In this document: positions 9,247 through 26,025 of the stretch, one piece after another | How the letters are laid out: the number at the start of each line of letters is the position of its first letter | Numbering within the stretch: position 1 is the first letter of the stretch | Origin: Thermoanaerobaculia bacterium | Lineage (GTDB): Bacteria > Acidobacteriota > Thermoanaerobaculia > JALWYX01 | Length of the DNA: 52,622 bases | Assembly: GCA_027078415.1 (NCBI GenBank) | Contig: JALWYX010000045.1 | Location: 1-52,622, forward strand | Direction: 5' to 3' | Notes under the pieces: generated by a model | The model's input: the letters and a program-made list of their open reading frames with translations, nothing else | The model's database searches: none | Told to the model about the DNA's origin: nothing | Translations under genes and position numbers: made by a program

Positions 9247-9280
9247 TGGTATAATTTTGGATAAAGTGAGAAGGAGGTGA
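9247..9280 (+). promoter_or_regulatory. Extended -10 promoter and strong ribosome site of the secreted-protein cassette
   Basis: TGGTATAAT at 9247-9255 is a full extended -10 element (TG-n-TATAAT), with no clear -35 box. The predicted transcript start is near 9262. A near-perfect Shine-Dalgarno, AAGGAGGTGA at 9271-9280, sits three bases before the ATG at 9284. Together they predict strong expression of the first gene. Confidence 0.7.
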
Positions 9281-9283
9281 ATT

Positions 9284-9940
9284 ATGAGAAAATTAAAGTT
9301 TGTAATATTTGTGATAGCATTGGCGCTAGTACCGGGTGCGTATGCTCAGTTAGGTCCTTTAACTGCTAACGTTGAGATAACGATAAATTTTCCAGAAGTT
9401 CTGATACTTTACTATAACTCGCCTATTACTGTAAATATCGATGCTTCTTATTTTCTAAGTCCTAATCCATATAATGAAGGTGATGTAGTTGCATTTACAG
9501 TTAATAGTGGTTCAAACGTGGGTGATGCCTTGGTGGATGGTTTACCGGAGCCTAGTGGTATAGGTTCAACACCTGCCGAGATAATATTTCAAAACTTTTG
9601 GGCTCTAAGGGGTCTTACTAACGATACTAATGGTACTATGACTTTTCAACATTCTCCAATTAATACAGGGGAATTTACACCTGGTACTGGAACTGGTAGC
9701 ATAAACTTAACTGAGATAGGAATAAGTTTGGATGAGACAGGTGGTGGTGGTTTTGTTAACGATACCGATTGCGATACAACTACATGTTCTGCTTCTGTAA
9801 ATTTTAATCCTTCAGTTACATTGTCTTTGACTACCCCTGAGATAGGGGCTGGTAGGATTGTTGTAGATTTCTCGAACGTTACAGGACCAGGGTCGTTTAC
9901 TAGTAATGGATTCCAGCTAGTCGCGCAGACTACCCCTTAA
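9284..9940 (+). CDS. Secreted beta-rich protein, candidate major subunit of a chaperone-usher-like system
   Basis: A 218-residue exported protein with a clear signal peptide (residues 1-21, ending GAYA before Gln22). The mature part is rich in Gly, Thr, Ser, Asn and Val, nearly devoid of Lys, and shows alternating hydrophobic beta-strand patterns. The segment just after the signal peptide alternates like a donor strand, and the C-terminal third (SVTLSLTTPEIGAG onwards) looks like the last strands of a pilin-type sandwich. Two cysteines near residue 165 are four residues apart. I do not recognise a named family; it could be a spore-coat-U or pilin-like subunit. The strong promoter, the terminator just after it and the downstream chaperone and usher genes suggest that it is the abundant exported subunit. 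Confidence 0.7.
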   Translation: MRKLKFVIFVIALALVPGAYAQLGPLTANVEITINFPEVLILYYNSPITVNIDASYFLSPNPYNEGDVVAFTVNSGSNVGDALVDGLPEPSGIGSTPAEIIFQNFWALRGLTNDTNGTMTFQHSPINTGEFTPGTGTGSINLTEIGISLDETGGGGFVNDTDCDTTTCSASVNFNPSVTLSLTTPEIGAGRIVVDFSNVTGPGSFTSNGFQLVAQTTP

Positions 9941-9946
9941 GTTAGG

Positions 9947-10396
9947 ATGGGTATAGGTGTGGGTAGTGGCCTTAAAAGAGCCACTACCTGTATTTTATTT
10001 TTTCTGTGTTGTTGTCTGGAGGGTGAAGAAGTAAGATTGGCCCCTGTTAAGGTTGAGGAAATAATACCTTACTATGAGGGAGAAGGGGTGTATCCTATAG
10101 AGTTGCTTGGATCGGCTTTAAATAAAGCTATTTATAGGAATTTTTCTGTTGTTCTAGATTTAAAAAAAGAGATTTGTAAAGCTTCATGTTACGTAGTTTA
10201 TCCTGAGGAAGGTAAAAAAGTTTTGTTAAGGAACGTTAAGGGATACATAGAAGCAGAGATAATAGAAACGCAGTGTAGCTGTTTAGATAAGCGTTTTATT
10301 GAGCTCAGAGTTTCTTTGAAAATTTATATAGATAATCTTGGCTATGCAGGTTTATATAGCAGTAGTACACCTTTTATTTTTGATTTTAGTCAGTGA
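9947..10396 (+). CDS. Small secreted Cys-containing protein, candidate minor subunit
   Basis: I do not recognise this family. The frame is 149 codons. Its N-terminal 26 residues look like a signal peptide: basic Lys-Arg, then a hydrophobic run with three adjacent cysteines, ending LEG. The mature part is beta-rich with Cys pairs in EICKASC and TQCSC. It ends in AGLYSSSTPFIFDF, which recalls the final strand of pilin or spore-coat-U domains. The signal-peptide codons coincide with a terminator hairpin, so this gene is expressed only by readthrough. The start at 9947 has a poor ribosome site, and GTG at 9959 is an alternative. The 3' end overlaps the chaperone start by 53 bases. Confidence 0.55.
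   Translation: MGIGVGSGLKRATTCILFFLCCCLEGEEVRLAPVKVEEIIPYYEGEGVYPIELLGSALNKAIYRNFSVVLDLKKEICKASCYVVYPEEGKKVLLRNVKGYIEAEIIETQCSCLDKRFIELRVSLKIYIDNLGYAGLYSSSTPFIFDFSQ
9962..10003 (+). terminator. Intrinsic terminator/attenuator after the major subunit gene
   Basis: A perfect 9-bp stem, GGTAGTGGC (9962-9970) and GCCACTACC (9980-9988), with a 9-base loop, is followed by a U-rich tract (9989-10003). It lies 21 bases after the stop of the first cassette gene and inside the 5' part of the next gene. It should end most transcripts there and let a fraction read through to the minor subunit, chaperone and usher. Confidence 0.85.
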
Positions 10397-11111
10397 ATTT
10401 CTGTCTGCTCAAAACCTTCCTCCTCCTGTAGTTGCAATAGCACCTATTAATTTGGTTTTACACGTTGATTCGGGATCAAAAGAGACATCAGGTAAGTATA
10501 CTCTTATAAATTTGAGCGATAGAGATATGAAAGTAAAAGTAGAGGTAAGTCACTTTGATGTAAAGAACGGTAATTTGGTAGAAATTGCTCCAGATGAAAA
10601 CTCAATAGCTCCATGGGTTTTTGTTAACCCCGCTACTTTTTATTTAAAACCGAAATCTAAGAAAGTTATACGAGTTATGGTAGCACCTCCTGAACCTTTG
10701 CGTGACGGTGAATATAGAGCTCTTATAACCTTTAGGGAGGTTCCTATCAGATCGGGGGATAACCAAATATTCTTTAGTATACGATCCCAACTCTATTTGC
10801 AAGTGGGTAATCCTGTTGACAAAGTTGAAGTTGATATTAAATACGAAGATGAAACTTTGGAGATAGCTATCTTTAATAAAGGCCAATACCATTTTGCAGG
10901 TCAAGCTTATTACTATTTCACAGATGATTCTTCAACCGAAGAACCGAAGTTGTCTGATAAAAACATTATCAAGTTAGGTAAAGTATTTCCTGCTAAAAAG
11001 AAAGTTATAAAGAGAGAGATAAATAGCGATTGTAATAAGCTACTCGTTGTTGAAGTAGTATCGATCTATACGGGGGAGGTGGTCGGTAAAAAGTTTTTTG
11101 ATTGTAAATGA
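10344..11111 (+). CDS. PapD-like periplasmic chaperone
   Basis: About 255 residues. An N-terminal signal peptide ends EFLSA before Gln-Asn. The rest fits the two immunoglobulin-like domains of pilus chaperones: first VVAIAPINLVLHVDSG (strand A), then KYTLINLSDRDMKVKVEV, and a LKPKSKKVIRVMVAPPEPLRDGEYRALITFREVP block that matches the F-G strands and the conserved acidic/basic positions of domain 1. Residues from about 155 form domain 2, with two cysteines near the end. Such chaperones hold unfolded subunits by donor-strand complementation. An in-frame TTG lies at 10338. The gene overlaps its upstream neighbour by 53 bases and the downstream usher gene by four (ATGA), so translation is probably coupled. 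Confidence 0.8.
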   Translation: MQVYIAVVHLLFLILVSEFLSAQNLPPPVVAIAPINLVLHVDSGSKETSGKYTLINLSDRDMKVKVEVSHFDVKNGNLVEIAPDENSIAPWVFVNPATFYLKPKSKKVIRVMVAPPEPLRDGEYRALITFREVPIRSGDNQIFFSIRSQLYLQVGNPVDKVEVDIKYEDETLEIAIFNKGQYHFAGQAYYYFTDDSSTEEPKLSDKNIIKLGKVFPAKKKVIKREINSDCNKLLVVEVVSIYTGEVVGKKFFDCK

Positions 11112-13495
11112 TTATCGTTCGCTTTCTTTTCTTTATTTTCTTTTCTTGTGTCGCGTTAGATGCCCTTAATATATTGTCCTTAGAAGGATGGTCAGGGGTT
11201 GGAATATACGTTAGAAACAAGGAAGCAGCTACTATAAGAGTTTTTCAAAGTAAGGACGATCTACTTATACCGTTTGCCCGAGTGTTAAATATTCTAGAGT
11301 GTGGTGTTAGTTATCTGATAGAAGAGAAGAGATACAAGGTGCTAACTGCTATAGGTGACGTCTATTTCGGTAAGGAGGAGATGCAATATTTGGACGGTAC
11401 TGGTTATATACCTCTTTCTCTTTTTAGTGACAAAATGCATATAAAATGGAGATACGATGAGGAAGAAAGTAGTATCTTTTTTTATCCTCCTTGGAGAAAA
11501 TGTAAACCTTTGAAGAAGCCCGATATAAAACCAGATGTTGTACCTAGAAAAAACCAGTTGAGTTATATTCTTGCATCTGTAGGGTTTCAGAACCAATCTT
11601 ATCGATCGGCGAATTTAGAAGTGAGAGGTAGGGTATTAGGAGGAGCTTTTTTACTACGTGGCAATTTTGGGGATAGTAGAAATCTATCCAGAGTGTTTCT
11701 CTCGTGGATCAAAATTATGAAAGGAAAGTTTTTTTGGGTAGGAAACGGTCCTCTTACCACTGATCCTCTGCTAAAGGTATCTAACTTTACAGGTGTTAGA
11801 TTTGTTAAAACCAACTTACCAACCGATTTCTTTTTACTCGAGCCTGACTATTTGCCTGTAGCGTCTAGTTTGTATCGTAGGTATCAAACTTTAAGAGGTA
11901 AAGCACCTCCAGGATCTATAGTAGTTTTGAGAGTTGGAAAAAGAGTGATAGGTAGAACGGTGGCACGTATAGACTCTACCTATACAATAGACAATATAGA
12001 ATTACCTTTTTGGTCAGTTTTAGATGCCGAAATAGCGATATTTGATCCCTACAATCCTGCAGTTCCTATTAAGATAGAAAAAGTTACACTTAGTGCTTCG
12101 CAGTATACTCTTAAAAAAGGTGAATATCTGGTTTCTTTAGGGGGTGGAGTCGAAGGTGATGAGTTGCTAAGAGTTGTAAGAGGTGATCGTAGAAAAGAGA
12201 GTTCTGAACCTACCGCTAATCTTGCTTTAAGATACGGTATGTCAGATAAAGTTACGCTGGAAACAGAAGTTGTTTATCTAGATAGGAAGTCAGAAGCTAC
12301 TGTAGGAGCAACTATTGAGCCTTTTAGAGGATTTTTTATCTCAGGAAAAGGGAAAATAGGTGAGAGAAAAGGATACTTTTTTCAGTCACTGTATCATTAT
12401 AAAAGATTTAGGCTTAACGGCCATTACTTACATAATGGTGAAGAAGAGAATTTTTCTTTTTACTCTAGTGTTTTTTTTAATAATTTTGAAACTGGGTTGA
12501 AGGGGTATACAAAAATCGATGGAGGTATAGGGTTTAAACCTTTTGTACGTTTATTTGGTAAGGGGTATTCGTTGCTTTATACTCCTATCGAGGGTGAATA
12601 TGCTACCTATTTGACCTTATATCATAGGGCTCACTCTCTTAGAGTTTCCTATTTGGATGAGCTTAATGTTAATTACTCGTTGAATTTAAAAAGGTTTGGC
12701 TTGGATGCTAGCTATTTAAAAAGCGATTTTGGAGATAGGTTTTTGATTGGTGTAGTAGGTAATTTTGATAAGTGGCGTACCAATTATTCTGTTAGGTTTG
12801 GTTTTGGTAATGGGAAATACTTGACTTCCTATCTTCGTTTCTACCCTACACCGGGAGTAATAGCGTCTTTGAGTGCTACTTTTAACAATGGAAAATGGAG
12901 CGTAGCTAGTAGTTTATCATTTGGTCTTTCGTTCTTCGGCAAAAAAGTTGCTCCGTTTGAAGTTGCTTCCCCAATTAGGCTGAAGTCTTCAATAACTGGT
13001 AGAGTTGTAGTTAAAGAAAACGGAAAATTAGTTGGTTTGGAAAATGTTAGAATAACTGTGTCGTCCCGCTATCATGCTCTTACTAGGGAAGATGGCTCTT
13101 TTCAAATTTATCAATTGGATCCTGGGGTTTATCTTGTAGAACTTGATGAAGAAACTATACCAGTTAACGTGAGGCTAATAAAGAAATATTTTTATGTTCA
13201 GGTTGAAAAAGGGTCTAATAGCTACGTAGAATTTGTATGCGAAAGAGTCTACGGTATTGTCGGCAGAGTGCTCAAAGAAGGAGAAGCGATGGAAAATATA
13301 AAAGTATCCCTTGTCTTAAATGACAAGATAGTGCAAGATACTTTCACAGATAAATTTGGGTATTTCAGATTTGGAGACGTTGTGCCAGGTGAATATAAGC
13401 TGAGCGTGGATTATAACAATCAAAAGTATGTAAAAGATGTTAAAGTAAAAGATAATTTTGTTGGAGGCATAGTCATAAATGTTGATGATCAGTAG
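11108..13495 (+). CDS. Divergent usher-like outer-membrane protein
   Basis: A 795-residue protein with a signal peptide (about residues 1-19). Residues 20-135 form a small alpha/beta module ending GYIPLSLFSDKM that resembles copper-amine-oxidase-N-like or usher N-terminal modules. From about 155 to 640 there are many amphipathic strands suited to a beta barrel. Inside this, residues around 265-345 (PPGSIVVLRVG, TYTIDNIELPFWSVLDAEIAIFD split over the plug region, LKKGEYLVSLGGG) follow the order seen in usher plug domains, and LALRYGMSDKVTLETE matches the barrel part after the plug. Two carboxypeptidase-regulatory-like beta sandwiches end the protein (about 650-720 and 722-795). It probably exports the secreted subunits handled by the upstream chaperone. 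The assignment rests on pattern and context. Confidence 0.65.
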   Translation: MIIVRFLFFIFFSCVALDALNILSLEGWSGVGIYVRNKEAATIRVFQSKDDLLIPFARVLNILECGVSYLIEEKRYKVLTAIGDVYFGKEEMQYLDGTGYIPLSLFSDKMHIKWRYDEEESSIFFYPPWRKCKPLKKPDIKPDVVPRKNQLSYILASVGFQNQSYRSANLEVRGRVLGGAFLLRGNFGDSRNLSRVFLSWIKIMKGKFFWVGNGPLTTDPLLKVSNFTGVRFVKTNLPTDFFLLEPDYLPVASSLYRRYQTLRGKAPPGSIVVLRVGKRVIGRTVARIDSTYTIDNIELPFWSVLDAEIAIFDPYNPAVPIKIEKVTLSASQYTLKKGEYLVSLGGGVEGDELLRVVRGDRRKESSEPTANLALRYGMSDKVTLETEVVYLDRKSEATVGATIEPFRGFFISGKGKIGERKGYFFQSLYHYKRFRLNGHYLHNGEEENFSFYSSVFFNNFETGLKGYTKIDGGIGFKPFVRLFGKGYSLLYTPIEGEYATYLTLYHRAHSLRVSYLDELNVNYSLNLKRFGLDASYLKSDFGDRFLIGVVGNFDKWRTNYSVRFGFGNGKYLTSYLRFYPTPGVIASLSATFNNGKWSVASSLSFGLSFFGKKVAPFEVASPIRLKSSITGRVVVKENGKLVGLENVRITVSSRYHALTREDGSFQIYQLDPGVYLVELDEETIPVNVRLIKKYFYVQVEKGSNSYVEFVCERVYGIVGRVLKEGEAMENIKVSLVLNDKIVQDTFTDKFGYFRFGDVVPGEYKLSVDYNNQKYVKDVKVKDNFVGGIVINVDDQ

Positions 13496-13653: not shown

Positions 13654-14109
13654 TTATTTTTGTTGTTTTTCATCTTTTGTTTTATCTTTTTGTTTGTCGT
13701 TTTCTTTATTTTTTTCTGCAGGTTGTCCATTGCAGCTTTTTGGTTTAGATGCTATTACGGGAGAGAATTTCTCTCTTTTACCCTCCAATGAAATAGATTC
13801 TATGTAGTAATAATAGACTGTTTCAGGTTCTATATTTTTGTCTATAAATTCGTAACTGTGTTCTACATCAGTTGTTCCAGCTCCTTTTATAGGTTCTTTA
13901 TTTATTTTTTCAAAGGGGCCATCCTTATTGGTACTTCTATATACGTTAAAACCGAAGTTGTTAAACTCGCTTGCTGTTGTCCATTTGATTTTATTCTCTA
14001 TTTTACATTTGTTCTTTTTTGCTTTATCTTTACTACCTTCTTTCGAATCGTCTGATAACGCTATTAGTGAGGTAAATAGTATCATGATAGCTGCTAAGAC
14101 CTTTTTCAT
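13654..14109 (-). CDS. Secreted fibronectin-type-III-like protein
   Basis: A 151-residue protein with a signal peptide (residues 1-18), a short charged linker and one domain at about 35-125. That domain has the FN3-like pattern IKWTTASEFNNFGFNVYRS, DGPFEKIN and TVYYYYIESISLEGK. The last 27 residues are a Lys/Asp/Gln/Glu-rich low-complexity tail. Two cysteines flank the domain (residues 35 and 125), which could be disulfide-bonded. Its GGAGG ribosome site lies within the last codons of the peptidase gene, and only two bases separate the two, so it is the last gene of the minus-strand operon. Its role is unknown; it may be a binding partner or substrate anchor for the peptidase. Confidence 0.75.
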   Translation of the reverse strand: MKKVLAAIMILFTSLIALSDDSKEGSKDKAKKNKCKIENKIKWTTASEFNNFGFNVYRSTNKDGPFEKINKEPIKGAGTTDVEHSYEFIDKNIEPETVYYYYIESISLEGKREKFSPVIASKPKSCNGQPAEKNKENDKQKDKTKDEKQQK

Positions 14110-14111
14110 AT

Positions 14112-16550
14112 TTAGCCTCCAGATTTTAATTCTCTATATCCGAATAGTTCATATCCATTTTTTCTTATACCGTAAACTATTATTTTTTCTGCTAGTTCAG
14201 GTATGTGTAGTTCTAGGTAAGGAGTTTTAGGTAAAAGTTGTTCTTTTTTATAGGAGTTATTTTTTATCCATATTACATTTACAGATCTGGTGTCGCTTGG
14301 ATAGAAAATTTTTACTTTCTTGCCGTTCAATTCTACCGATACGTTCCTTTGGATTTTAGGGATAGGTAAAGCCGGATCTCCCAGGAGGTTGAAGATCTCT
14401 ATAAATTGTTTATCGTTTATCGTTCTTTTTACGTTTTTCACAGCTTCTCCTAAAGTTTGTGAAAATGCTAGGTTTTCGTATATTTTGGAGCTAACATGGG
14501 TAGACGGTGCAATTCTCCAAGATGCGGCTATTACTCCTATTGCACCTTTCATTTTTTCTCTTAAGAGTTTTTCTCCTATAGAATCGGCTGACGGGTGATC
14601 AAATGGTGCGGAAAAGCAAGTCATAGCAACAACTATAGGTAACTTTGTAGTGGCGACAAGTTTTTCCACATCTTTTACTGTGAAAAGGTCTACATGTTTT
14701 TTCCAGTCTGGAGGTCCTGTTCTCCATATGAATCTACCTCCGTGGCCGAAAAAGAATACCGAAAATGCCCCTTTGTTCCAGTTTTCAAATATACGTTGCT
14801 TATCTTCAGGCATAGTTTTGTTCTGCGAACTAGGAAAGAGTAAAGGTCCGAAGAAACCGTATCTGGTAGCATTTTTGTATACATGTAAGGTTGAGTTTTG
14901 CATCCATCTATCTTCGCTTGCTATCCACAAAACTTTGCGTTTCCACAAATAACTATCTGATAAATGTTCTACCCACTTTATAGTTTTTTCTACCATAGAT
15001 GCTAGTTCTTTTAAGTTAGCCGCTGGAAACCTACCGACAGCTAACTCTGGTTTACCATCGTTATTTACATCTGCAAAGTAATTGTCTCCTGCTGCATGTC
15101 CGTCATACGTCGCGTAATTCCATGTAGGTACTAAGTTTCTATTCATACTTTCTGAGTATGGCTGCGCGGGGGTTATGTCGAAATATACAAAATGATCAGG
15201 TCTATAAGTACTAGCTGGGTAATTTGTTATATCTGGGTGTTCATTTTTTGGATCCCAGCTTGCATCCCCAGCCAAAAGAAGAAAACGAGGTTTTTTCTTC
15301 CATTTCTTGTAGGCAAATCTGACGAACTTCGCTATAGCCTCCGGATCTGTAGTTCCGTATGAAAAGGCATCGTAAATTGCTTCTACGTCTATAACTTTTA
15401 CCTTCAACCCTTTACTTTCATGAAAAGCTGCCAATTTATCCAATCCTCGAGCAATTTTTGGATGAGTTATCATCAAATAGTCTGCTGGAGTTGTATCTAA
15501 AGCTTTGTTTCCTTTTAGAGTTCTTATCTCTATCGGAGATAACAATTTATCTTTGCGAAATACAAATATTCTGTCCCCTTTATTAGCTTTTATTGATAAA
15601 GTACATGGGCAATTGATCAAATTGGATATACCCTTATCCTCATGAGATATAAGATATTCACCGTTGGCTTCTATAGATAATGAGGGATCGTCTTCTGTCG
15701 CTTCAAGAACTATCTTGCCACTTTTTACACTTGTTATTGGAATTATCAATTCAGCCCAATTAAAAATTACTACGTCTGGTATAAGAGTTCCTTTGTCTGT
15801 ATATCTTTTTGGTACCTCTAGTTGAAGGTTGTTTGAATCTTTTATATCTTTTAGATGTAGCTCAAAGGTTTGCTCTATAGTTTCTCTGTTTCCGTTCCAC
15901 TTTACTTGTCCTAGGGATCGACCGTTAAAGAAAACATTTACTATGTGCTGAGGTTCTCCAGGTTTTACTCCAGGTGAAGTGGACCAACCTATAAAAGAGA
16001 GTTTAAGCACCATTTTTAGATCGTCAGCAACTGTAAATTTTCCAAGTTCTACAGGTAATTTTATTGAGAAACTTTTATCTAGTGGTGTTAATTTTTCCCA
16101 AAACCACATCTCTTGGTCACGTTCAGTTTTATAAGGGTATCTGAGAAAGATTTTATCGTTCTCATAGTGCAATCTTAATATCCATACGCTTTTGTTGTTG
16201 CTAGGTGTCAGAGAGATGCTTTTAAAGTTAGTAGGTTTTTTGCTATTTTTTATAAAAGCAGCGTTATAGTAGCTATATTCGTTGTAGTAGGAGTGTTTGC
16301 CACGTAGCATCTTACCCACAAACACTAAATCTTCTCCATTCTCAAGTTCTCTGTCATTATCTCCTAAAATTGTGTAGGCTACTTCTTTACCTTGGATAGT
16401 TATTGTGGGAGTTAGATTGTCTTTAAAGTAAGTGTGTAAATCTTTATAACTTACTTTGTACAAACCGTCCTCTTGGAGTATGACTTTTACTCCCTCAGCG
16501 TTTAATATAAGAGGTATAAACAAAAAGAGATATTTTATTAGTATTTTCAT
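14112..16550 (-). CDS. Gingipain-family (C25) cysteine peptidase-like secreted protein
   Basis: An 812-residue exported protein; the signal peptide is about residues 1-18. The N-terminal half (to about residue 370) is beta-rich and resembles the propeptide/accessory domains before C25 catalytic domains. The catalytic region begins with DYLMITHPK, then RFLLLAGDASWDP and DNYFADVNNDGKPELAVGRFPA. The His is in FFGHGG (His603) and the Cys in VAMTCFSAP (Cys645), the expected dyad. A short beta domain follows. I see no type IX secretion C-terminal domain, so the export route beyond Sec is unclear. The start overlaps the stop of the upstream glycosyltransferase gene by four bases. Confidence 0.82.
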   Translation of the reverse strand: MKILIKYLFLFIPLILNAEGVKVILQEDGLYKVSYKDLHTYFKDNLTPTITIQGKEVAYTILGDNDRELENGEDLVFVGKMLRGKHSYYNEYSYYNAAFIKNSKKPTNFKSISLTPSNNKSVWILRLHYENDKIFLRYPYKTERDQEMWFWEKLTPLDKSFSIKLPVELGKFTVADDLKMVLKLSFIGWSTSPGVKPGEPQHIVNVFFNGRSLGQVKWNGNRETIEQTFELHLKDIKDSNNLQLEVPKRYTDKGTLIPDVVIFNWAELIIPITSVKSGKIVLEATEDDPSLSIEANGEYLISHEDKGISNLINCPCTLSIKANKGDRIFVFRKDKLLSPIEIRTLKGNKALDTTPADYLMITHPKIARGLDKLAAFHESKGLKVKVIDVEAIYDAFSYGTTDPEAIAKFVRFAYKKWKKKPRFLLLAGDASWDPKNEHPDITNYPASTYRPDHFVYFDITPAQPYSESMNRNLVPTWNYATYDGHAAGDNYFADVNNDGKPELAVGRFPAANLKELASMVEKTIKWVEHLSDSYLWKRKVLWIASEDRWMQNSTLHVYKNATRYGFFGPLLFPSSQNKTMPEDKQRIFENWNKGAFSVFFFGHGGRFIWRTGPPDWKKHVDLFTVKDVEKLVATTKLPIVVAMTCFSAPFDHPSADSIGEKLLREKMKGAIGVIAASWRIAPSTHVSSKIYENLAFSQTLGEAVKNVKRTINDKQFIEIFNLLGDPALPIPKIQRNVSVELNGKKVKIFYPSDTRSVNVIWIKNNSYKKEQLLPKTPYLELHIPELAEKIIVYGIRKNGYELFGYRELKSGG

Positions 16551-19393
16551 ACTTTTACCCCTATCTTATCAGCTATAGCGTAGAGCTCTTTTTTGTAAAT
16601 AGCAAGAGCTTTTTCCAGACCGAAATATTCTAGTACAAATCTTTTCCCTTCCAACGCTATCTCTTTGCTGCGTGAACTATTTTCTACTACAAATTTCATT
16701 TTCTCAACGGCGTCATCTATATCCGCTTCTGCCCACACTGCACCTTTTGGATAAGGAGAGAGCTCTCTATCTATAGATTTTAGTTTGTAAGCTACAGGGA
16801 ATCCGGTATCGCTGGTGAGATACTCGGTAACACCCCCATAGTTGGTTGCTATAACCGGTTTTCCCAACATCATACCTTCTATAGGGATTATGCCTAATCC
16901 TTCCGATCTATGGAGAGAAAGTATAGCGTCACTCGAGGCTATCATTGTTTCAACTTCTTCTCTTGTGGTTGGTTGAGTATATATTATAACGTGTGTATCT
17001 GAAGCAAGTTTACGTATTTCTGCAACTCTGTCTAAGTTCTCCGTTGCACGGGTTATTTTAAGAAATAGGCCGACTTTCTTCTGGGTTTTTTTGGTAAGTT
17101 TTTTAACGGCTTCTATAGCAGCTTCAGGATTTTTCCTATCAGGTACGCTGCGTATATCAAAGGCAAAGAAGAAATAGAACCGATCCTTCTCCATACCTAG
17201 TTTGTCTCTGTTAGCAGTCGCTTTAGGAGGCGGTATAACAACTGGCATGGTTTTAACTGGTACTGGTGATACAGTTTCGAAAGAGGATTTACAAAAGTTG
17301 GAAAAAGTCCATATTTCGTCTATTTTAGCGAATCTGTCGGTGAATTTTATCGGAAAGTGGGCTAGCTCCCACGCCCAAAAAGCTATTTTGTAGCTGTCTA
17401 CCAAAACAGATGCAGGTAGATTACTAAGTACCCACGGAATCTCATCTGCATTGCTTACTAAAATAGATATAGGGTAGCATATACCGTCGCTAAAAAGTCT
17501 TCTTCCTTCTAAATCGCTTCCTAGTAAATCTATATCTAATGGAACTAGAGAAAGAGGGAATTGCAGCTCTTTTATGGTATTTTTTACTGAACGCGCTATT
17601 ACCCCTGTACCTGTGTCTAAAATGAAATGTCCTGCTAAATTTATACCAAACGGAGCGTGGGTTAAGGGTTGAGGTTTTATAGATACTCCCTTGGTTTCTA
17701 CTTTTTCTGATATATATTCAGAATATTTAGTTAAGTGAACAGGTTCTAATCTCGGAAGAAACTTTATGGGTTTGATCTCGTATTTTTTAGCAGTTTCTTT
17801 GATTATATTTTCACGTTGAGCAATAAACTCTTCGTCTCCCAACGCCTCGAGGATAGGATGTAGAAATTTTTCGCTTAGTCCATATTCAAGCTTACCGGAT
17901 ACTATAAACCATTTAAGAAAACCTTCATAATCGGTTCCAAATATATCTGGAAAAGCTTGTTGTATATCACCTCTACCCATATATAGTAGGAGTGCCAATC
18001 TCGTTATATATTTTTTATTATCTTTAGCGTATATCTTCTCGTTTAGCCATTCTACTTGCGATTCCAGAGGGTTTGTCAAGTCTACAGTGGAGAGAATGTT
18101 TTCTATATTGGAGAAAACGTATATATCTATAGGTTGAACGTGCTCAATTGAGAGAAACGAGATTTTGTTGTTTATACTATTTTCTTCTGTTAGCTCCAGA
18201 AATATTTCGTTTATATGAAACATATCAAGTCCTACTTCGCGCACCCATTGTTTGAAAACAGGCAGATGTTCATCCCATATACGAGGGAATGTTCTTGTTA
18301 CTCCAGGAAAAGTTTCCCACAGTGCTAAGAGCAGATGGTTTATCAATCCCTGTTTAAGTTTTATAGGTTTTAATAGGTATCCTAGAAACGAGTCTTTTTC
18401 TTTTAAGGAGAATGGATTGGACCACCTTTTTCCATAAGGATCTAATTTTGCAAGTAGTCTTCTTGCTATCGGAGGAATAAATAGGGTAGTGTCTTCAAAA
18501 TAGTTGAAGGCGTATTTTATATTTCGTAAATAGGCGTGACCTGATTCTACCACTAGCTTTGAATACATTTCTAGTAAGGGTCTTATGTGATGAAGTTGGT
18601 GAGGTTGAATTCTTGTTTGATATTTACTTATATGTGTAGTATCTAATACGTTAAAGCCGCTAAAATGAAAAAAACGTAGAGGTAATCCGTCAGCGTACCA
18701 CCGATTTTCTTTAAAGGAGATCTCGCGTGTGGTTAAGTTCCAGTAAGCTACGTTGTAGTTAGGTTCACGCATTATTTTCACATTATCTATAAAACAAGGT
18801 ATAAAATCCGCCCACGATTGATCTACGAATAAACCGTGCTGGTGATCATGAAAACAGTATAGGTAGAGTCTCTTTTGCCACCATTTTATAAAATCCTTTA
18901 CGGCGGGAGTCATCTTAAATGCTCCGAAGCCCAAGTTGTAAACACCTACCATGCGTATCAAACGTTCACTGGGTACGTAGTCGTTGTCTAGCGGTTTTGT
19001 TATGTGAGGAGTTAGCACTATTTCATACTCCTCAAGGTAATTGAGAAGTTCTTCGCATCTCGAAGTAACAAGTATGTCAGGATCAAAATAGATTATTTTT
19101 TTTGCTCCTAAAGTTTTATGAAGGTATTCTATGAAAAACGGTTTTACAGCAGTATTGAACTCTAAAATGGTGTATTTAAATGCGAAATTATAAAAATTGG
19201 GTATCTCCAGTTCCTCCGCAAAAACTGTGTGGAAAGGAAATAACGAGTAGGGAATAGCTGGATCTTTTTTGTCCGCTATAAGGACTACAGTATCTATATC
19301 TGGGTGAAAGCGTTTGAAAGATTGTGCTAGTACTTTTGCTAAAGCTAAATAGTTATTTGATACTATGGTACACGCTACCGTTTCACCTTTCAT
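16547..19393 (-). CDS. Two-headed glycosyltransferase (GT8-like plus GT4-like)
   Basis: A 948-residue cytoplasmic fusion. Residues 1 to about 270 look like a GT-A domain of the GT8 type: an ACTIVSNNYLALAKVLAQSF start, the DxD motif in IIYFDPDILV near residue 103, and a conserved VYNLGFGAF. A linker of about 300 residues follows. Residues from about 590 form a GT-B GT4 domain with the hinge VIPPP, then FAFDIRSVPDRKNPEAAI, LSLHRSEGLGIIPIEGMMLGKP (the E-x7-E motif) and ATNYGGVTEYL. It probably adds two sugars in succession to a surface glycan or protein. It leads the operon with the C25 peptidase and the FN3-like protein. AGAGG lies eight bases before the ATG. Confidence 0.82.
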   Translation of the reverse strand: MKGETVACTIVSNNYLALAKVLAQSFKRFHPDIDTVVLIADKKDPAIPYSLFPFHTVFAEELEIPNFYNFAFKYTILEFNTAVKPFFIEYLHKTLGAKKIIYFDPDILVTSRCEELLNYLEEYEIVLTPHITKPLDNDYVPSERLIRMVGVYNLGFGAFKMTPAVKDFIKWWQKRLYLYCFHDHQHGLFVDQSWADFIPCFIDNVKIMREPNYNVAYWNLTTREISFKENRWYADGLPLRFFHFSGFNVLDTTHISKYQTRIQPHQLHHIRPLLEMYSKLVVESGHAYLRNIKYAFNYFEDTTLFIPPIARRLLAKLDPYGKRWSNPFSLKEKDSFLGYLLKPIKLKQGLINHLLLALWETFPGVTRTFPRIWDEHLPVFKQWVREVGLDMFHINEIFLELTEENSINNKISFLSIEHVQPIDIYVFSNIENILSTVDLTNPLESQVEWLNEKIYAKDNKKYITRLALLLYMGRGDIQQAFPDIFGTDYEGFLKWFIVSGKLEYGLSEKFLHPILEALGDEEFIAQRENIIKETAKKYEIKPIKFLPRLEPVHLTKYSEYISEKVETKGVSIKPQPLTHAPFGINLAGHFILDTGTGVIARSVKNTIKELQFPLSLVPLDIDLLGSDLEGRRLFSDGICYPISILVSNADEIPWVLSNLPASVLVDSYKIAFWAWELAHFPIKFTDRFAKIDEIWTFSNFCKSSFETVSPVPVKTMPVVIPPPKATANRDKLGMEKDRFYFFFAFDIRSVPDRKNPEAAIEAVKKLTKKTQKKVGLFLKITRATENLDRVAEIRKLASDTHVIIYTQPTTREEVETMIASSDAILSLHRSEGLGIIPIEGMMLGKPVIATNYGGVTEYLTSDTGFPVAYKLKSIDRELSPYPKGAVWAEADIDDAVEKMKFVVENSSRSKEIALEGKRFVLEYFGLEKALAIYKKELYAIADKIGVKV

Positions 19394-19875: not shown

Positions 19876-20541
19876 ATGCTGTATAGGCATTTGGATGATG
19901 CGCTTACCAGTTTGAGAAAGAAGCTTCTTGCGATGGAAAATGGAGTATTAGAGATGATAATCTATACGCGGAAGGCTATAGTTGACTCGGAGATCGATCT
20001 AGCAAAGAAAGTGATAGAGTACGATTTAAGTATAGACAGGTTGGAAAAAGAGATAGATAATCACTGCATGAACGTATTGGCGCTATACGAACCGAAGGCT
20101 ATAGATCTACGATTTCTTGTATCTGTTATGAAAATAGTAAACGATTTGGAAAGGGTCGGTGATTGCTGTGTTAATATTTCTAGAACAGCTATAGATTTGG
20201 CTGAAGAACCTCCTCTTAAGCCTTATTTGGATTTACCGAGGATGTTCGATATCGTGTACAATATGCTCAAAAGCGCTCTAAAATCCCTTGAAGATAAGGA
20301 TAGTACTTTAGCTAGAGAAGTTATGCGTAAAGATGACGAGGTGGATGCTCTGTATCATCAGCTTTTTAGGGAACTGATAACTTTTATGATGGAAGATCCT
20401 AAGAGCGTAAAACGTGCTCTAGGACTTTTGCTAGCCGCAAGAAACCTTGAACGGATAGCTGACCATGCTACTAATATAGCCGAAGATGTTATATTTTATT
20501 TAGAAGCAAAAGACGTAAGACATCCTAAAATAGAATCTTAA
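19876..20541 (+). CDS. phoU: Phosphate signalling protein PhoU
   Basis: A 221-residue all-helical protein of normal length, with two repeated three-helix PhoU domains (about 5-105 and 115-215). Each repeat has the acidic D/E-x-x-x-D/E metal-binding pattern: VNDLERVGDCCVNIS in the first, ARNLERIADHATNIAED in the second. PhoU couples the Pst transporter to phosphate signalling and restrains uptake. Here it is the first gene of the operon, before pstS, whereas in many proteobacteria it follows pstB. The ATG is preceded by a purine-rich site and a near-consensus promoter. No phoB/phoR genes are in the window. Confidence 0.95.
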   Translation: MLYRHLDDALTSLRKKLLAMENGVLEMIIYTRKAIVDSEIDLAKKVIEYDLSIDRLEKEIDNHCMNVLALYEPKAIDLRFLVSVMKIVNDLERVGDCCVNISRTAIDLAEEPPLKPYLDLPRMFDIVYNMLKSALKSLEDKDSTLAREVMRKDDEVDALYHQLFRELITFMMEDPKSVKRALGLLLAARNLERIADHATNIAEDVIFYLEAKDVRHPKIES

Positions 20542-20610
20542 TCGTTTTTATGGGAATTGATCCCTCCAGCTTAGTTGCTAATAAGTTTAATTTTTGCAAG
20601 GAGGCATGGT

Positions 20611-21579
20611 ATGTCAAAAAGAGTTTTCTTTATATTTGTAACTGTGTTATTTGGATCTGTTGTTACTGCTCAACAATACAAAGATGTTATATCTTCTTAT
20701 CCTTCCTATAAGCCGGAAAGTATAGTGTCTGGAACTCTTACAGCAATAGGTTCAGATACACTTAACAATCTGATGACTTTTTGGGCTGAAGGTTTTCAAA
20801 AGTTCCATCCTGGAGTAAAGATAGAGATAGAAGGAAAAGGTTCTTCTACTGCTCCTCCTGCACTTATAGAAGGAACAGCTCAATTAGGACCTATGAGTAG
20901 AAAGATGAAAAGAAGCGAGATAGATAAATTTGAGAAGGTTTTTGGATACAAACCTACTGCGGTAAAGGTAGCATTGGATGGCCTAGCTATTTATGTTAAT
21001 ATGGAAAACCCGCTAGATTCTCTATCTATACCAGAAGTAGATGCGATATTCTCAAAAACTAGGTACTGCGGGTATCCTAACGATATCTCTAGTTGGAGCG
21101 ATATAGAGAGTATAAAAGGTTGGTCTTCTAGAAGAATAAGTCTATACGGTAGGAACTCAGCGTCAGGAACTTATGCGTTTTTTAAAAAGGTAGCTCTTTG
21201 CAAAGGAGATTTTAAAGATCAAGTTAAAGAGCAACCTGGATCCTCTTCTGTGGTGCAATCAGTTGTAGCTGATAAGTTTAGCATAGGGTATAGCGGTATA
21301 GGTTATAAAACCTCGGGAGTTAAAGTGTTAGCTCTAGCTAGAGAGAAAGGAGGTAAACCTTACACTGTTTCCTACGACAATGTGGTGTCAGGTAAATATC
21401 CACTTGGAAGATTCCTATACATTTATATCAACGATCCCCCTACGAAACAGGTCGATAAGATGATAAAAGAATTCTTCAGATTTATATTTAGTAAGGAAGG
21501 ACAGAGTTTGGTAGTACAAGCCGGGTATCTGCCTATTCCCTTTAAGGTGGCTGTTAGAGAGTTAGGGAAAATAAAATAA
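20611..21579 (+). CDS. pstS: Phosphate-binding protein PstS
   Basis: The periplasmic phosphate receptor of the Pst ABC transporter. The start at 20611 is set by AAGGAGG (20598-20604) and gives 322 residues with a signal peptide (1-20, ending VVTA before Gln-Gln). Phosphate-binding segments are visible: AIGSDTLNN, KGSSTAPPALIEG, and GRNSASGTYAFF, the loop that wraps phosphate. A pair of cysteines (TRYCGYP and ALCKGD) could form a disulfide. It is separated from phoU by 69 bases with a small GGGA/TCCC hairpin but no clear terminator, and from pstC by 15 bases. Confidence 0.94.
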   Translation: MSKRVFFIFVTVLFGSVVTAQQYKDVISSYPSYKPESIVSGTLTAIGSDTLNNLMTFWAEGFQKFHPGVKIEIEGKGSSTAPPALIEGTAQLGPMSRKMKRSEIDKFEKVFGYKPTAVKVALDGLAIYVNMENPLDSLSIPEVDAIFSKTRYCGYPNDISSWSDIESIKGWSSRRISLYGRNSASGTYAFFKKVALCKGDFKDQVKEQPGSSSVVQSVVADKFSIGYSGIGYKTSGVKVLALAREKGGKPYTVSYDNVVSGKYPLGRFLYIYINDPPTKQVDKMIKEFFRFIFSKEGQSLVVQAGYLPIPFKVAVRELGKIK

Positions 21580-21594
21580 TATAGTAAAACCGTG

Positions 21595-23718
21595 ATGTTA
21601 AGCAGGAGAAGAGAAGATAAAGTTTTTTCCGTGTTAATAAAATCAGGTGGTATAGCAACTATATTTGTTATACTTTCTATTTTTTTCTTCCTTTTTTGGG
21701 AAGTGTTACCTATTTTTGTACCTGCTCGGATAGAGACTTTAAAGATTACAACTGTCAAACAGACTTTGAAAGGTGAGGTGTTCTTGCTTGATGAATATAT
21801 GAACTATCTAATTTCGGTCGGAAATGATGGATTTAAGATAGTAAATGCACGCGAAGGAGATGTGGTAAGTACAGAGATTATAAACGATCTGCACGCATTC
21901 TACCTTGATCCTTTAACTTACGTTCTATTTTTGGTTAGAGATGATGCTACCGTTGATATATTTGATATATTGTGGGTAGAGAAATTTACTAAATTTGGCA
22001 AACGTTTTGTTGAACCTTCTATAGACAAAGTAACCTCTTTTAAGCTACCTTCAAAAGTAGATCTTATAAGAGGAGTTAAACTCCCTGAAGATGAAGGTTA
22101 TCTGTTTATAGGATCCAGTAAAGAAACTTTATATTTTGTTAATTTGGAGACAGAAGAGGATTTTTTAACTGAGGAGATAACGTATTCACCTCGTCTTTCA
22201 TCCTTTAAAGTGGAGCATAATGTAGTGGATGTAGCTATCAGTAGAGACGGGAAATTTATTTGTGTAATATCGGGATTTTATCTCTCATGTTTTGAAAGAG
22301 AAAATTTGTTATCTGAAAAGTTACTTTCTTATACTTTGTCATCGAGGGCTGTTGCTTTTGATTTCCTCGTTGGTGATAGAGCCTTAGTGTTGTTAGAAGA
22401 TGGAAAACCCCCTGTGGTTTGGATAACTGCAAAAATAGGTAGCGAAGTTAGGTTTGTTAACGCTAAAAATTTTAGTAGGGGATGTAAGGAGTATATAAAC
22501 CTTTCTGTGTCTCCGATTAATAGAACTTTTTTGGCACAGTGTGGGAATGGAACCTTTTATGCTTACTACTCTACAAACGAAAGACTGTTACTTGAAAGTC
22601 CAGCTCCCGTACTGAGTTCTCCTATTTTTATAACACCCAGAGGAGATCACCTTTTTTGGGTTACGAAAGATGAAATCTATACGGTAAGATTTGTAAATGA
22701 TTATCCAGAGATATCGTTAAAGTCTCTATTTGGTAAGGTATGGTACGAGGGTATGGATTCTCCCTCATACGTTTGGCAGTCTACTGGAGGAACCGACAGT
22801 TTTGAACCTAAGCTTAGTTTGATACCTTTGTTGATGGGTACTTTGAAGGGCGTTGTATACTCGCTCATTTTTGCTGTACCCATTTCTGTACTGTCGGCAC
22901 TTTTAGTTTCTCAATTTATGAATAGTAAACAGATAAATCTGATAAAGCCAGCTGTAGAATTTATGGCTTCTATACCTACGGTTATTCTAGGTTTTTTGGC
23001 AGCATTGTGGTTAGCTCCACTTATTGAGAGAAACCTTTTTTCTTTTTTGGTAATATTCGTTCTTTTACCTTTTTACATATTAGTGTTTTACTTTGTTTTT
23101 ACAGTATTACCATCTGATTCTAAGTGGAAAACTATTGGTTTAGCAGCTGTTTTTATTTATAGCTTGGGCCCCCTTTTTCATATGACCAAACGTTTGGAAT
23201 ATTTATGGTTTGAAGGCGGATTCGTAGAGTGGTTAAGTGAAAATGGTGTCTATTACGATCAGAGGAATGCATTAATAGTAGGATTAGCCGTTGGTTTCAC
23301 TATAGTTCCTATCATTTTCTCCATTGCAGAAGATGCTTTTAGTAACGTTCCTAAATCTATATTAGTGGGCGCCATGGCTCTTGGTGCTAGTAGAATTCAA
23401 GCTGTTTTTAAAGTTGTTCTACCAGCTGCATTGCCAGGAGTATTCGCAGGTATAATTCTAGGGTTTGGTAGAGCTGTAGGGGAAACTATGATAGTACTTA
23501 TGGCTACAGGAAATACTCCTATTTTAGATTTTTCTCCATTTACAGGCTTCAGGACTATCTCGGCTAACATAGCTGTCGAATTACCTGAAGCTCCTCTAGG
23601 TTCTTCTCTTTATAGGGTACTGTTCCTCTCTGCATTGTTGCTTATGGTTATAGCGCTTGTTTTTAACGGGGTAGCTAACTATATAAGAATGAGATTACAC
23701 AGAAAGCTTAAGTTTTGA
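21595..23718 (+). CDS. pstC: Phosphate ABC transporter permease PstC, long form
   Basis: About 707 residues against about 320 for the Escherichia coli protein. The first membrane helix (about 18-38) is followed by a soluble insert of about 350 residues, beta-rich with repeats such as YLFIGSSKETLYFVN and VAISRDGKFICVIS that suggest a propeller-like fold. The permease domain starts near residue 410 and has six further membrane segments. It carries the ABC-contact loop, FSNVPKSILVGAMALGAS followed by LPAALPGVFAG and GRAVGETM. Long PstC proteins of this sort are known in Pseudomonas and Vibrio. GTG at 21592 is an alternative start; no Shine-Dalgarno is visible. PstA follows after one base. Confidence 0.92.
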   Translation: MLSRRREDKVFSVLIKSGGIATIFVILSIFFFLFWEVLPIFVPARIETLKITTVKQTLKGEVFLLDEYMNYLISVGNDGFKIVNAREGDVVSTEIINDLHAFYLDPLTYVLFLVRDDATVDIFDILWVEKFTKFGKRFVEPSIDKVTSFKLPSKVDLIRGVKLPEDEGYLFIGSSKETLYFVNLETEEDFLTEEITYSPRLSSFKVEHNVVDVAISRDGKFICVISGFYLSCFERENLLSEKLLSYTLSSRAVAFDFLVGDRALVLLEDGKPPVVWITAKIGSEVRFVNAKNFSRGCKEYINLSVSPINRTFLAQCGNGTFYAYYSTNERLLLESPAPVLSSPIFITPRGDHLFWVTKDEIYTVRFVNDYPEISLKSLFGKVWYEGMDSPSYVWQSTGGTDSFEPKLSLIPLLMGTLKGVVYSLIFAVPISVLSALLVSQFMNSKQINLIKPAVEFMASIPTVILGFLAALWLAPLIERNLFSFLVIFVLLPFYILVFYFVFTVLPSDSKWKTIGLAAVFIYSLGPLFHMTKRLEYLWFEGGFVEWLSENGVYYDQRNALIVGLAVGFTIVPIIFSIAEDAFSNVPKSILVGAMALGASRIQAVFKVVLPAALPGVFAGIILGFGRAVGETMIVLMATGNTPILDFSPFTGFRTISANIAVELPEAPLGSSLYRVLFLSALLLMVIALVFNGVANYIRMRLHRKLKF

Positions 23719-23719
23719 T

Positions 23720-25252
23720 ATGACTAATTCAAAGTACTGGGAAGATCTTATTCTTTGGTACCTGAGAGTATCTCTTCTTTTACTGCTTCTATTACTTATA
23801 GGTGTATTATTAGTCATTTTCAAAAACGCTCTTGCAGCTTTTAGTGTTAAAGATTTATACCTGTTGGAAACAAAGAGTGGCAAGAAGTTTCTAGGGGAGA
23901 TATGGCTTAATTCAAGAGTTGCTGAAGATAATTTACGTTTGCGTGTGGGAAACAGGGATATCTATGGCAAGGAGTTTATTGTTGTAAAAAAAGATGAAAT
24001 AGAGTCTATTAGGGTGGACAAAGATGCTGTACTTGTAGAAAGAGTAAAGTGGGGAGTTTTTATAGGGTATCTAAAAGAGCTGATAATAGGAAACAGGAGA
24101 GTAGATCCAGAGATATCGATTGTTGAAAAGACTATTAAAAAGGTAGAGAAACTTAGAGAAAAAGAACATGAATTGTCTAGAAACATTGCTCGATTGAGTA
24201 ATGAACTAAGAGTTGTGCAAGAAAAGTCATCGCCATCACCGTACGTGTTAGAAGAGCTTAAAAAAAGAATTGAGACTCTTTTTAAGGAACTGGATAATGT
24301 TAGAGCGGAAATTTCGCAATATAAGCTTGTAGCCAGTACAGTTGAGGGTGATATATCTACCTTGGATATGGGAAACGTAGTTAGAGTGGTAGCTTCAGGA
24401 AAAATTAGCTATTTTAAGAAGAGCAAAATTTACTTATCGAGAATATGGGATTTTTTGAGCGAATATCCCGCAGAATCTAATACTGCGGGTGGCATTATGC
24501 CTGCAATATTTGGCACCGCCGTTCTGGTTTTTGTAATGACAATTATGGTTTTGCCTTTTGGAGTGATAGCTGCAGTTTACATGCATGAGTATGCTCAGGA
24601 AGGTTGGTTGATAAATTTAGTAAGAGTAGCTGTTAGCAATCTAGCGGCTGTGCCTTCTATTGTGTTTGGTATGTTTGGATTGGGATTTTTTATCTATAGA
24701 ATTGGAGGCACTATAGATTCAGTTTTTTTCCCCTATAAACTTCCACATCCTACATTTGGGACAGGGGGGTTGCTCTGGGCAAGTGCTACTTTGGCTATAT
24801 TGACCTTACCTGTTGTAATAGTTGCTACTGAGGAGGGATTAGCTTCTGTCCCCCGCGTGGTTAGGGAAGGTGCTTTAGCCCTGGGAGCTACGAAATGGGA
24901 GGTTATAAAAGGAGTGGTGTTACCAGGCGCTATACCTGGTATACTAACAGGTGCTATATTAGCTATCTCTAGAGCGGCAGGCGAGGTTGCACCGCTTATG
25001 CTTGTAGGAGTTGTAAAAATGGCTCCTGAGCTTCCTATATCTGGAGAGTTTCCTTTTATACACCTTAATAGAAAGTTTATGCATTTGGGGTTCCATATAT
25101 ACGATTTGGCTTTCCAGAGCCCGAATGTGGAAAGTGTAGAACCACTTATATTTGCTACATCTGCTGTTTTACTCGTTATAGTGCTACTATCTAATGCAGT
25201 GACTATATCTCTTAGAAATTATTTAAGGAAAAGGTATACACACGGCTTATGA
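23720..25252 (+). CDS. pstA: Phosphate ABC transporter permease PstA, long form
   Basis: A 510-residue partner of PstC, compared with about 300 in Escherichia coli. The first membrane helix (about 15-38) is followed by an insert of about 200 residues. Its first part is beta-rich and its second part (about 135-215) is a predicted coiled coil with many Glu, Lys and Leu. The permease domain from about 255 has five more membrane segments and the EAA loop [22 protein letters not shown], then [11 protein letters not shown] and [12 protein letters not shown]. The stop overlaps the pstB start by four bases (ATGA), so translation is probably coupled. Confidence 0.93.
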
Positions 25253-26025
25253 AACAGAAAGATAAAGTTACAGATCCTATTTTCGAGATAAAAGACCTCT
25301 CTTTCTGGTATGGGCAAAATAAAGCTTTAGATTCGATCACTTTTGACATTCAGAAAGGTGATATAACAGCTATAATAGGTCCATCTGGTTGTGGCAAATC
25401 TACGCTTCTTCGCTGTCTCAATAGAATGAATGATCTTATAGAAGGTGTACGTGTAGAAGGAGATATACTTTTTGAAGGACAGAGTATATATAAGAAAAAT
25501 ATAGATCTCATAATGCTTCGTAAAAGAGTGGGAATGGTTTTTCAGAAGTCCAATCCTTTTCCTAAATCTATATATGAAAACGTAGCTTTTGGTCCTCGTA
25601 TACACGGTGTTAAGAATAAAAATATACTTGATGAAATAGTGGAAAAGAGCTTGAGGGATGCAGCTCTTTGGGACGAAGTTAAAGATAGGTTACACCATAG
25701 CGCTTTGAAGCTTTCAGGAGGCCAACAACAACGATTATGCATAGCTAGAGCTATAGCTGTAGATCCAGAGGTTATTCTGTTTGATGAACCTTGCTCTGCG
25801 TTGGATCCCGTTGCTTCAGCTAAGATAGAAGAACTTATGTTAGAGCTGAAAGGAAAGTATACCCAGGTTATAGTTACTCACAATATGCAACAGGCTTCTA
25901 GAGTTTCAGACTGGACCGCATTTTTACTTATGGGCAAGATGATAGAATTCGGTCCTACAGAACAGATATTCCTAGCCCCACGTAATAAAATTACTGAAGA
26001 GTATGTCACAGGGAGATTCGGTTAA
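25249..26025 (+). CDS. pstB: Phosphate import ATP-binding protein PstB
   Basis: The ATPase of the Pst importer, 258 residues, as usual. Walker A is GPSGCGKST near residues 44-52, then the Q-loop [11 protein letters not shown] typical of PstB, the ABC signature LSGGQQQR, Walker [14 protein letters not shown] and the switch His in VTHNMQQA. The [12 protein letters not shown] segment after Walker A is a PstB hallmark. It overlaps pstA by four bases and is followed after 12 bases by a small unknown gene. Confidence 0.97.

Follow-up and report, generated by a model that had tools for sequence, protein, structure and literature searches.

The window analysed here is a stretch of 52,622 nucleotides from a Thermoanaerobaculia bacterium (Acidobacteriota; contig JALWYX010000045.1), and it carries a cassette of four genes that is very probably a chaperone-usher system of an undescribed lineage, missed by automatic annotation. 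The four open reading frames (ORFs) lie in one direction on the + strand between positions 9284 and 13495, with intergenic distances of +6, -53 and -4 nt, in agreement with the initial annotation, which had described four genes in line with overlaps. Gene 1 (9284..9940, 218 aa) encodes a major pilin-like subunit with a signal peptide and with homologues in seven loci, and gene 2 (9947..10396, 149 aa) a small secreted protein that is homologous to it and represents a minor subunit. Gene 3 (10344..11111, 255 aa) encodes a periplasmic PapD-like chaperone (PF00345, 26.5 bits); its start was taken as the ATG at 10344, the ORF finder having given a TTG at 10338. Gene 4 (11108..13495, 795 aa) encodes the outer-membrane usher, as judged from a structural model, a structural search and profile comparison. 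In the window genome (1.96 Mb) a single PapD_N gene is present, no match to Pfam Usher (PF00577) was obtained across the whole genome, and no second copy of the major-subunit gene was found.

The product of gene 4 is an usher. It carries no Usher domain in Pfam and NCBIfam, where the sole domain found was PF13620 (54.6 bits) over two C-terminal stretches, and neither Pfam Usher PF00577 nor TcfC nor CooC_C matched the window usher or seven aligned homologues. An AlphaFold2 model computed from an eight-sequence alignment (mean predicted local distance difference test, pLDDT, 70.6; predicted template modelling score, pTM, 0.55) gives on the + strand an usher N-terminal domain (11189..11485, residues 28-126), barrel strands 1-6 (11555..11812, residues 150-235), a plug domain with the motif RGKAPPGSIVVLRVGKRVIG (11825..12046, about residues 240-313, of which the model folds about 259-313 as a small beta domain) and the rest of the barrel, with about 18 strands (12053..12937, residues 316-610). 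The protein ends in two transthyretin (TTR)/carboxypeptidase-regulatory-like domains (12986..13480, residues 627-791), which replace the C-terminal domains CTD1 and CTD2 of ushers; such TTR-like domains were present in 8/8 of the scanned ushers of the same type (hereafter window-type ushers). When the model was searched against the PDB, the 17 best matches were all FimD or PapC (best E 1.6e-21, probability 1.00), the best of them extending over 875 columns at 11% identity with a TM score of about 0.48, and the best non-usher match (E 1.9e-9) was to TTR-type domains, with porins at E 2e-5. Ushers of the chaperone-usher pathway have a 24-strand barrel with the plug between strands 6 and 7. The usher-like plug order claimed initially is found again in the predicted structure and in the structural search, the plug being predicted after strand 6, and the best matches are to FimD and PapC and not to porins, as would have been expected of a simple porin or two-partner secretion barrel without a plug.

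The homology was also measured between profiles. The window-type usher profile aligned with a reference profile of eight ushers, seven Pfam-Usher-positive proteins from Acidobacteriota and FimD, at 99.3% (E 1.4e-20). The alignment spans 673 columns and runs collinearly from the N-terminal domain through the plug; with the C-terminal domains removed it still reached 98.1% (E 1.1e-13). Five TonB receptors of E. coli K-12, likewise plugged, served as control and gave 0.3% (E 0.18) with the window type and E 0.19 with the known ushers. A family profile of ushers was needed for this comparison, single-sequence hhalign of the window usher against FimD and EcpC being uninformative.

The chaperone is homologous to those of known systems. 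PapD_N is above the Pfam cut-off of 23 in the window protein and was matched by 9/9 chaperone homologues, and the chaperone family profile aligned, across its two domains, with chaperones of archaic type from the same phylum (E 1.5e-18); the PapD-like chaperone proposed initially, with its immunoglobulin (Ig) fold, is borne out by these matches. Archaic and alternative chaperones are marked by an invariant Pro in strand D1 and a super-conserved Arg89 in strand F1 (PMC4654587). In the window chaperone family P96 is invariant (9/9), as is the Arg of GE[YH]RA, which falls in register with the archaic Arg only if a gap is allowed. ORFs with the archaic 'YR' motif were present in 10/11 of the archaic-type loci examined.

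By sequence, neither the major nor the minor subunit has a match in Pfam, NCBIfam or the PDB. Homologues of the gene 1 protein were found in six other alignment loci at 20-25% identity, sharing the pattern 'A.G...I.I.FP.V.ILYY.S.I' after the signal peptide and 'GD..L.LD.S.A...G.Y..G...L.A' at the C-terminus. The mature N-terminus shows alternating hydrophobics (VEITINFPEVLILYY), a pattern kept across the family. Family profiles of the gene 1 and gene 2 proteins matched at 90.2% (E 1.5e-6) over the C-terminal 92 columns, both proteins having a 'lDls.a..aGtYsGtltvta'-like C-terminal strand and alternating hydrophobics at the N-terminus, and the small protein is therefore a second (minor) subunit. 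This homology, established by profile comparison, is new relative to the initial annotation, which had described the small protein as secreted and Cys-containing; the cysteines are present in the window and absent from the Thermoanaerobaculum-type homologue. The gene 1 family profile did not match FimA (E 0.35), and its contact with DUF4402 is weak (2/7 homologues at best E 0.011; profile comparison 49.7%). The AlphaFold2 model of the gene 1 protein is a low-confidence beta-sandwich in which residues 15-35, the mature N-terminus, are disordered, and fimbrial-subunit chains, including CS20, FimI and FimG, account for 9 of its first 35 structural matches, none of them significant. The subunits may have an incomplete Ig fold.

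The same four-gene order was found in eight genomes, seven of Acidobacteriota and one of Candidatus Fermentibacteria, with flanking genes that are unlike between lineages. Besides the window, it occurs in G023 (L004), an uncultured Thermoanaerobaculum (L053), Thermoanaerobaculales SMBSF41 (L048), two Acidobacteriota metagenome-assembled genomes (MAGs; L049, L050), MAG Bpl_9 (L052) and the Candidatus Fermentibacteria MAG (L054). A third Acidobacteriota MAG (L051) shows the last three genes only, its contig beginning in front of the small gene. Since the order is kept in eight genomes with unlike flanks, the cassette is more than a chance arrangement, and the four genes are conserved together. 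In a phylum sample of 396 Acidobacteriota genomes, a full-length relative of the usher was present in 7/396, Pfam Usher in 10/396 and PapD_N in 30/396, and one genome (G031) has a window-type locus in addition to a Pfam-Usher locus. The family alignment used as query found seven usher loci, whereas the scan with the single window usher found none. Three further loci (L041-L043) were dropped as family members, as they match the window-type usher through the TTR domains only. In these loci (L041 4570-10970, L042 4468-7793, L043 4160-8447) a chaperone gene of WxLIP-like or PapD-like type is accompanied by genes for a barrel that is shorter and carries TTR domains and for small secreted proteins resembling subunits, and these gene sets are possibly a third relative of the system. 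Upstream of the cassette in L049 (2943-4124) and L050 (3135-4273), a pseudopilin-like gene and an outer-membrane-barrel-like gene were observed.

A putative extended -10 promoter element (TGGTATAAT, 9247..9255, +) can be read by eye upstream of the major-subunit gene and is absent from the list given by the consensus scan. The scan itself was at chance, with 16 sites vs 15.9 in shuffled sequences and none listed just upstream of 9284, and the shared promoter proposed initially does not rise above that level. The major-subunit gene has a strong ribosome-binding site (AAGGAGGTGA, 9271..9280, +), and those of other loci likewise have purine-rich ribosome sites. Just 3' of this gene, where the small gene is annotated to begin, lies an RNA hairpin followed by a T-rich tail (9956..9994, +; -19.7 kcal/mol, z -3.7), which a simple terminator scan, at chance level, did not list. 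The hairpin test covered the window, L004, L048, L049, L050, L053 and L054, L052 being left out, and a strong hairpin 3' of gene 1 was found in 6/7 loci, the window and five others (L004, L048, L049, L050 and L053; z -3.8 to -4.6), where the sequences are unrelated to one another; L054 has no hairpin after gene 1. The hairpin is likely a partial terminator or a 3'-end stabiliser of the major-subunit message. Partial termination or message protection of the major pilin is known from classical pilus operons. Since a strong hairpin directly follows the first gene, unequal expression of the four genes is possible, and since it overlaps the annotated start of gene 2 in the window, this gene may start further downstream.

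Gene sets of the same kind were found around DUF4402. This domain is above cut-off in 22/396 Acidobacteriota genomes, where its genes adjoin PapD_N genes and the gene of a large barrel protein that shares the plug-type motif and has TTR domains at its C-terminus; no DUF4402 subunit above cut-off is present in the window's own genome. The DUF4402-type usher profile matched the window type at E 6e-18 and the known ushers at E 1e-11. Relatives of these ushers were also found on plasmids of Polaromonas, Sphingopyxis, Novosphingobium and Pseudoalteromonas, annotated as 'carboxypeptidase regulatory-like domain-containing protein' or as hypothetical, in the gene order DUF4402, (hypothetical), DUF4402, molecular chaperone or hypothetical, large protein. 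As in the window cassette, the order is subunit, second subunit, chaperone and usher, and the usher has the plug motif and the TTR C-terminal domains. In contrast, the subunits are clear DUF4402 proteins, whereas those of the window type touch this family weakly, and some loci carry a further DUF4402 gene after the usher. The DUF4402-chaperone-'carboxypeptidase regulatory' sets of Acidobacteriota and Proteobacteria are a sister type of the window cassette. At L121 (3149-7087) the DUF4402-type usher is 1312 aa long and has a long repetitive C-terminal tail resembling SPOR repeats, and SPOR-domain genes lie near the usher gene in Pseudoalteromonas (L138).

Chaperone-usher systems have been divided into classical, alternative and archaic groups comprising six clades, the archaic group being the only one found outside the beta- and gamma-Proteobacteria, in many phyla, and the alternative (alpha, CS1/ECP) systems being reported solely from these two classes (PMC9452303). 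With the archaic (sigma) systems, such as Csu, the window shares a chaperone homologous over both domains, a homologous and collinear usher and an occurrence beyond the Proteobacteria; it differs from them by lacking PF00577 and a spore-coat-U subunit, by its TTR C-terminal domains and by a strand F1 Arg that is out of register with the archaic 'E..YR' motif. The alternative systems have the same order of subunit, chaperone and usher, and the C-terminal CooC_C domain of EcpC scores weakly as carboxypeptidase-regulatory-like (E 1.2e-4), but the window usher has neither TcfC nor CooC_C, both present in EcpC, and its profile match to EcpC is marginal (51%). The classical FimD and PapC have the same fold and domain order as the window usher, but at 11% identity; in addition, profile comparison gave no FimA-like subunit in the window and the classical chaperone anchor pair is not evident. 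In sequence terms the cassette lacks the markers of all the named groups (PF00577, TcfC/CooC_C, spore-coat-U). A tree was computed for 22 ushers, with only some of the known clades sampled; in it the window type (94/93) and the DUF4402 type (100/100) each form a group, and both stand together (95/95) apart from the Pfam-positive ushers and EcpC. This joint branch is likely, not proven. In our judgement it is about as likely as not that ushers of the window type and of the DUF4402 type make up a fourth major group, in addition to the classical, alternative and archaic ones. Such a group would have TTR-like C-terminal domains, would extend across Acidobacteriota, Fermentibacterota and three classes of Proteobacteria (alpha, beta and gamma), and would have been overlooked through its carboxypeptidase-regulatory annotation. 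No description of Acidobacteria or Acidobacteriota ushers, of carboxypeptidase-regulatory ushers or of the DUF4402 sets as a system, and no mention of DUF4402 itself, was found in the literature (open-licence papers).

Several results weigh against the reading as a chaperone-usher system of its own lineage. The usher model is of moderate quality (pLDDT 70.6), part of the barrel being below 50, and the exact strand count is uncertain; the usher tree was built at 11-20% identity, with EcpC, FimD and the window row as long branches. For the subunits, the model of the gene 1 protein is poor (pLDDT 59.6), its structural matches are not significant (the best, E 0.012, being a carbohydrate-binding module), no match to spore-coat-U or another Pfam pilin family was obtained in either subunit family, and the cassette holds no adhesin gene. 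In the chaperone, the Arg of GE[YH]RA and the archaic Arg lie two residues apart when aligned without gaps, a position near the start of strand A1 is Asn in the window protein but Arg or Lys in the homologues, and counterparts of the carboxylate-anchor residues found in known chaperones cannot be clearly recognised. The good alignment of the window chaperone with archaic-type chaperones and the fact that archaic systems alone are reported from many phyla (PMC9452303) could indicate simply a very diverged archaic (sigma) system; usher trees are, moreover, fragile at such identity, and the branch of the window row is long. We consider this rather unlikely, as the window-type and DUF4402-type ushers group away from the Pfam-positive ushers and EcpC, the C-terminal domains are TTR-like in all scanned members, and archaic-type loci exist in the same phylum, in one genome separate from a window-type locus.

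The large protein could also be a porin, TonB receptor or two-partner transporter of the ordinary kind whose gene just happens to be next to that of a chaperone, as no Pfam Usher, TcfC or PapC domain was found in it, many other proteins of the outer membrane carry carboxypeptidase-regulatory domains and porins do appear further down the structural list. This is extremely improbable and already contradicted by the data: the top 17 structural matches are ushers, the best of them 12 orders of magnitude above the best non-usher, the profile is homologous to ushers and not to TonB receptors, and a chaperone gene adjoins the window-type usher at every locus. Some chaperone-usher systems are known to make capsule-like coats, and a machine exporting a non-pilus surface coat or single secreted subunits would be in agreement with a cassette that holds just two small subunits and no gene for a two-domain adhesin. 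We regard this as quite improbable, since the donor-strand-like N-termini of both subunits and the hairpin favouring an excess of the first one fit a polymer; moreover, such a coat would itself be polymeric in the same way, the difference being mainly one of shape. The diverged chaperone-usher cassette put forward in the initial annotation is supported; the surface fibre or coat suggested there may be its product.

The most likely mechanism is the standard one of chaperone-usher assembly, which the homology of the parts supports. Both subunits would cross the inner membrane by Sec, and in the periplasm the PapD-like chaperone would bind each of them, its G1 strand completing their unfinished Ig-like fold. 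The N-terminal domain of the usher would take up the chaperone-subunit complexes, the plug would move aside and the complexes would pass to the two transthyretin-like C-terminal domains, where the N-terminal donor strand of the next subunit could displace the chaperone strand (donor-strand exchange). A fibre made mostly of the 9284 subunit would grow outward, the 9947 protein being a minor component of it at the tip, at the base or as an adaptor, and the hairpin after the first gene could keep the major subunit in excess. Donor-strand exchange, the fibre with its shape and stoichiometry, and a role in attachment or biofilm are what we infer for the cassette.

Near the cassette, on the - strand, lies a gene for a Peptidase C25 protein (14112-16550; PF01364, 259 bits) related to the type IX sortase PorU (202 bits, below the cut-off of 420), adjoined by a gene for a small secreted protein with weak resemblance to Ig/CHU_C domains (13654-14109). 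The gene at 16547-19393 (-) encodes a protein of 948 aa in which a glycosyltransferase group 1 domain is confined to the last quarter, the first 700 residues having no Pfam match. Downstream of the cassette, on the + strand (19876-26025), a phosphate uptake set (PhoU, PstS and ABC-transporter genes) appears ordinary by sequence.

Chaperone-usher pili are the best understood machines for fibre assembly at the outer membrane, and a lineage escaping Pfam would enlarge their known diversity. It would also extend such fibres into phyla where they are hardly known and provide a natural test of which parts of the usher are essential. In addition, it suggests a likely function for DUF4402 and for proteins that are labelled merely by a regulatory-like domain.

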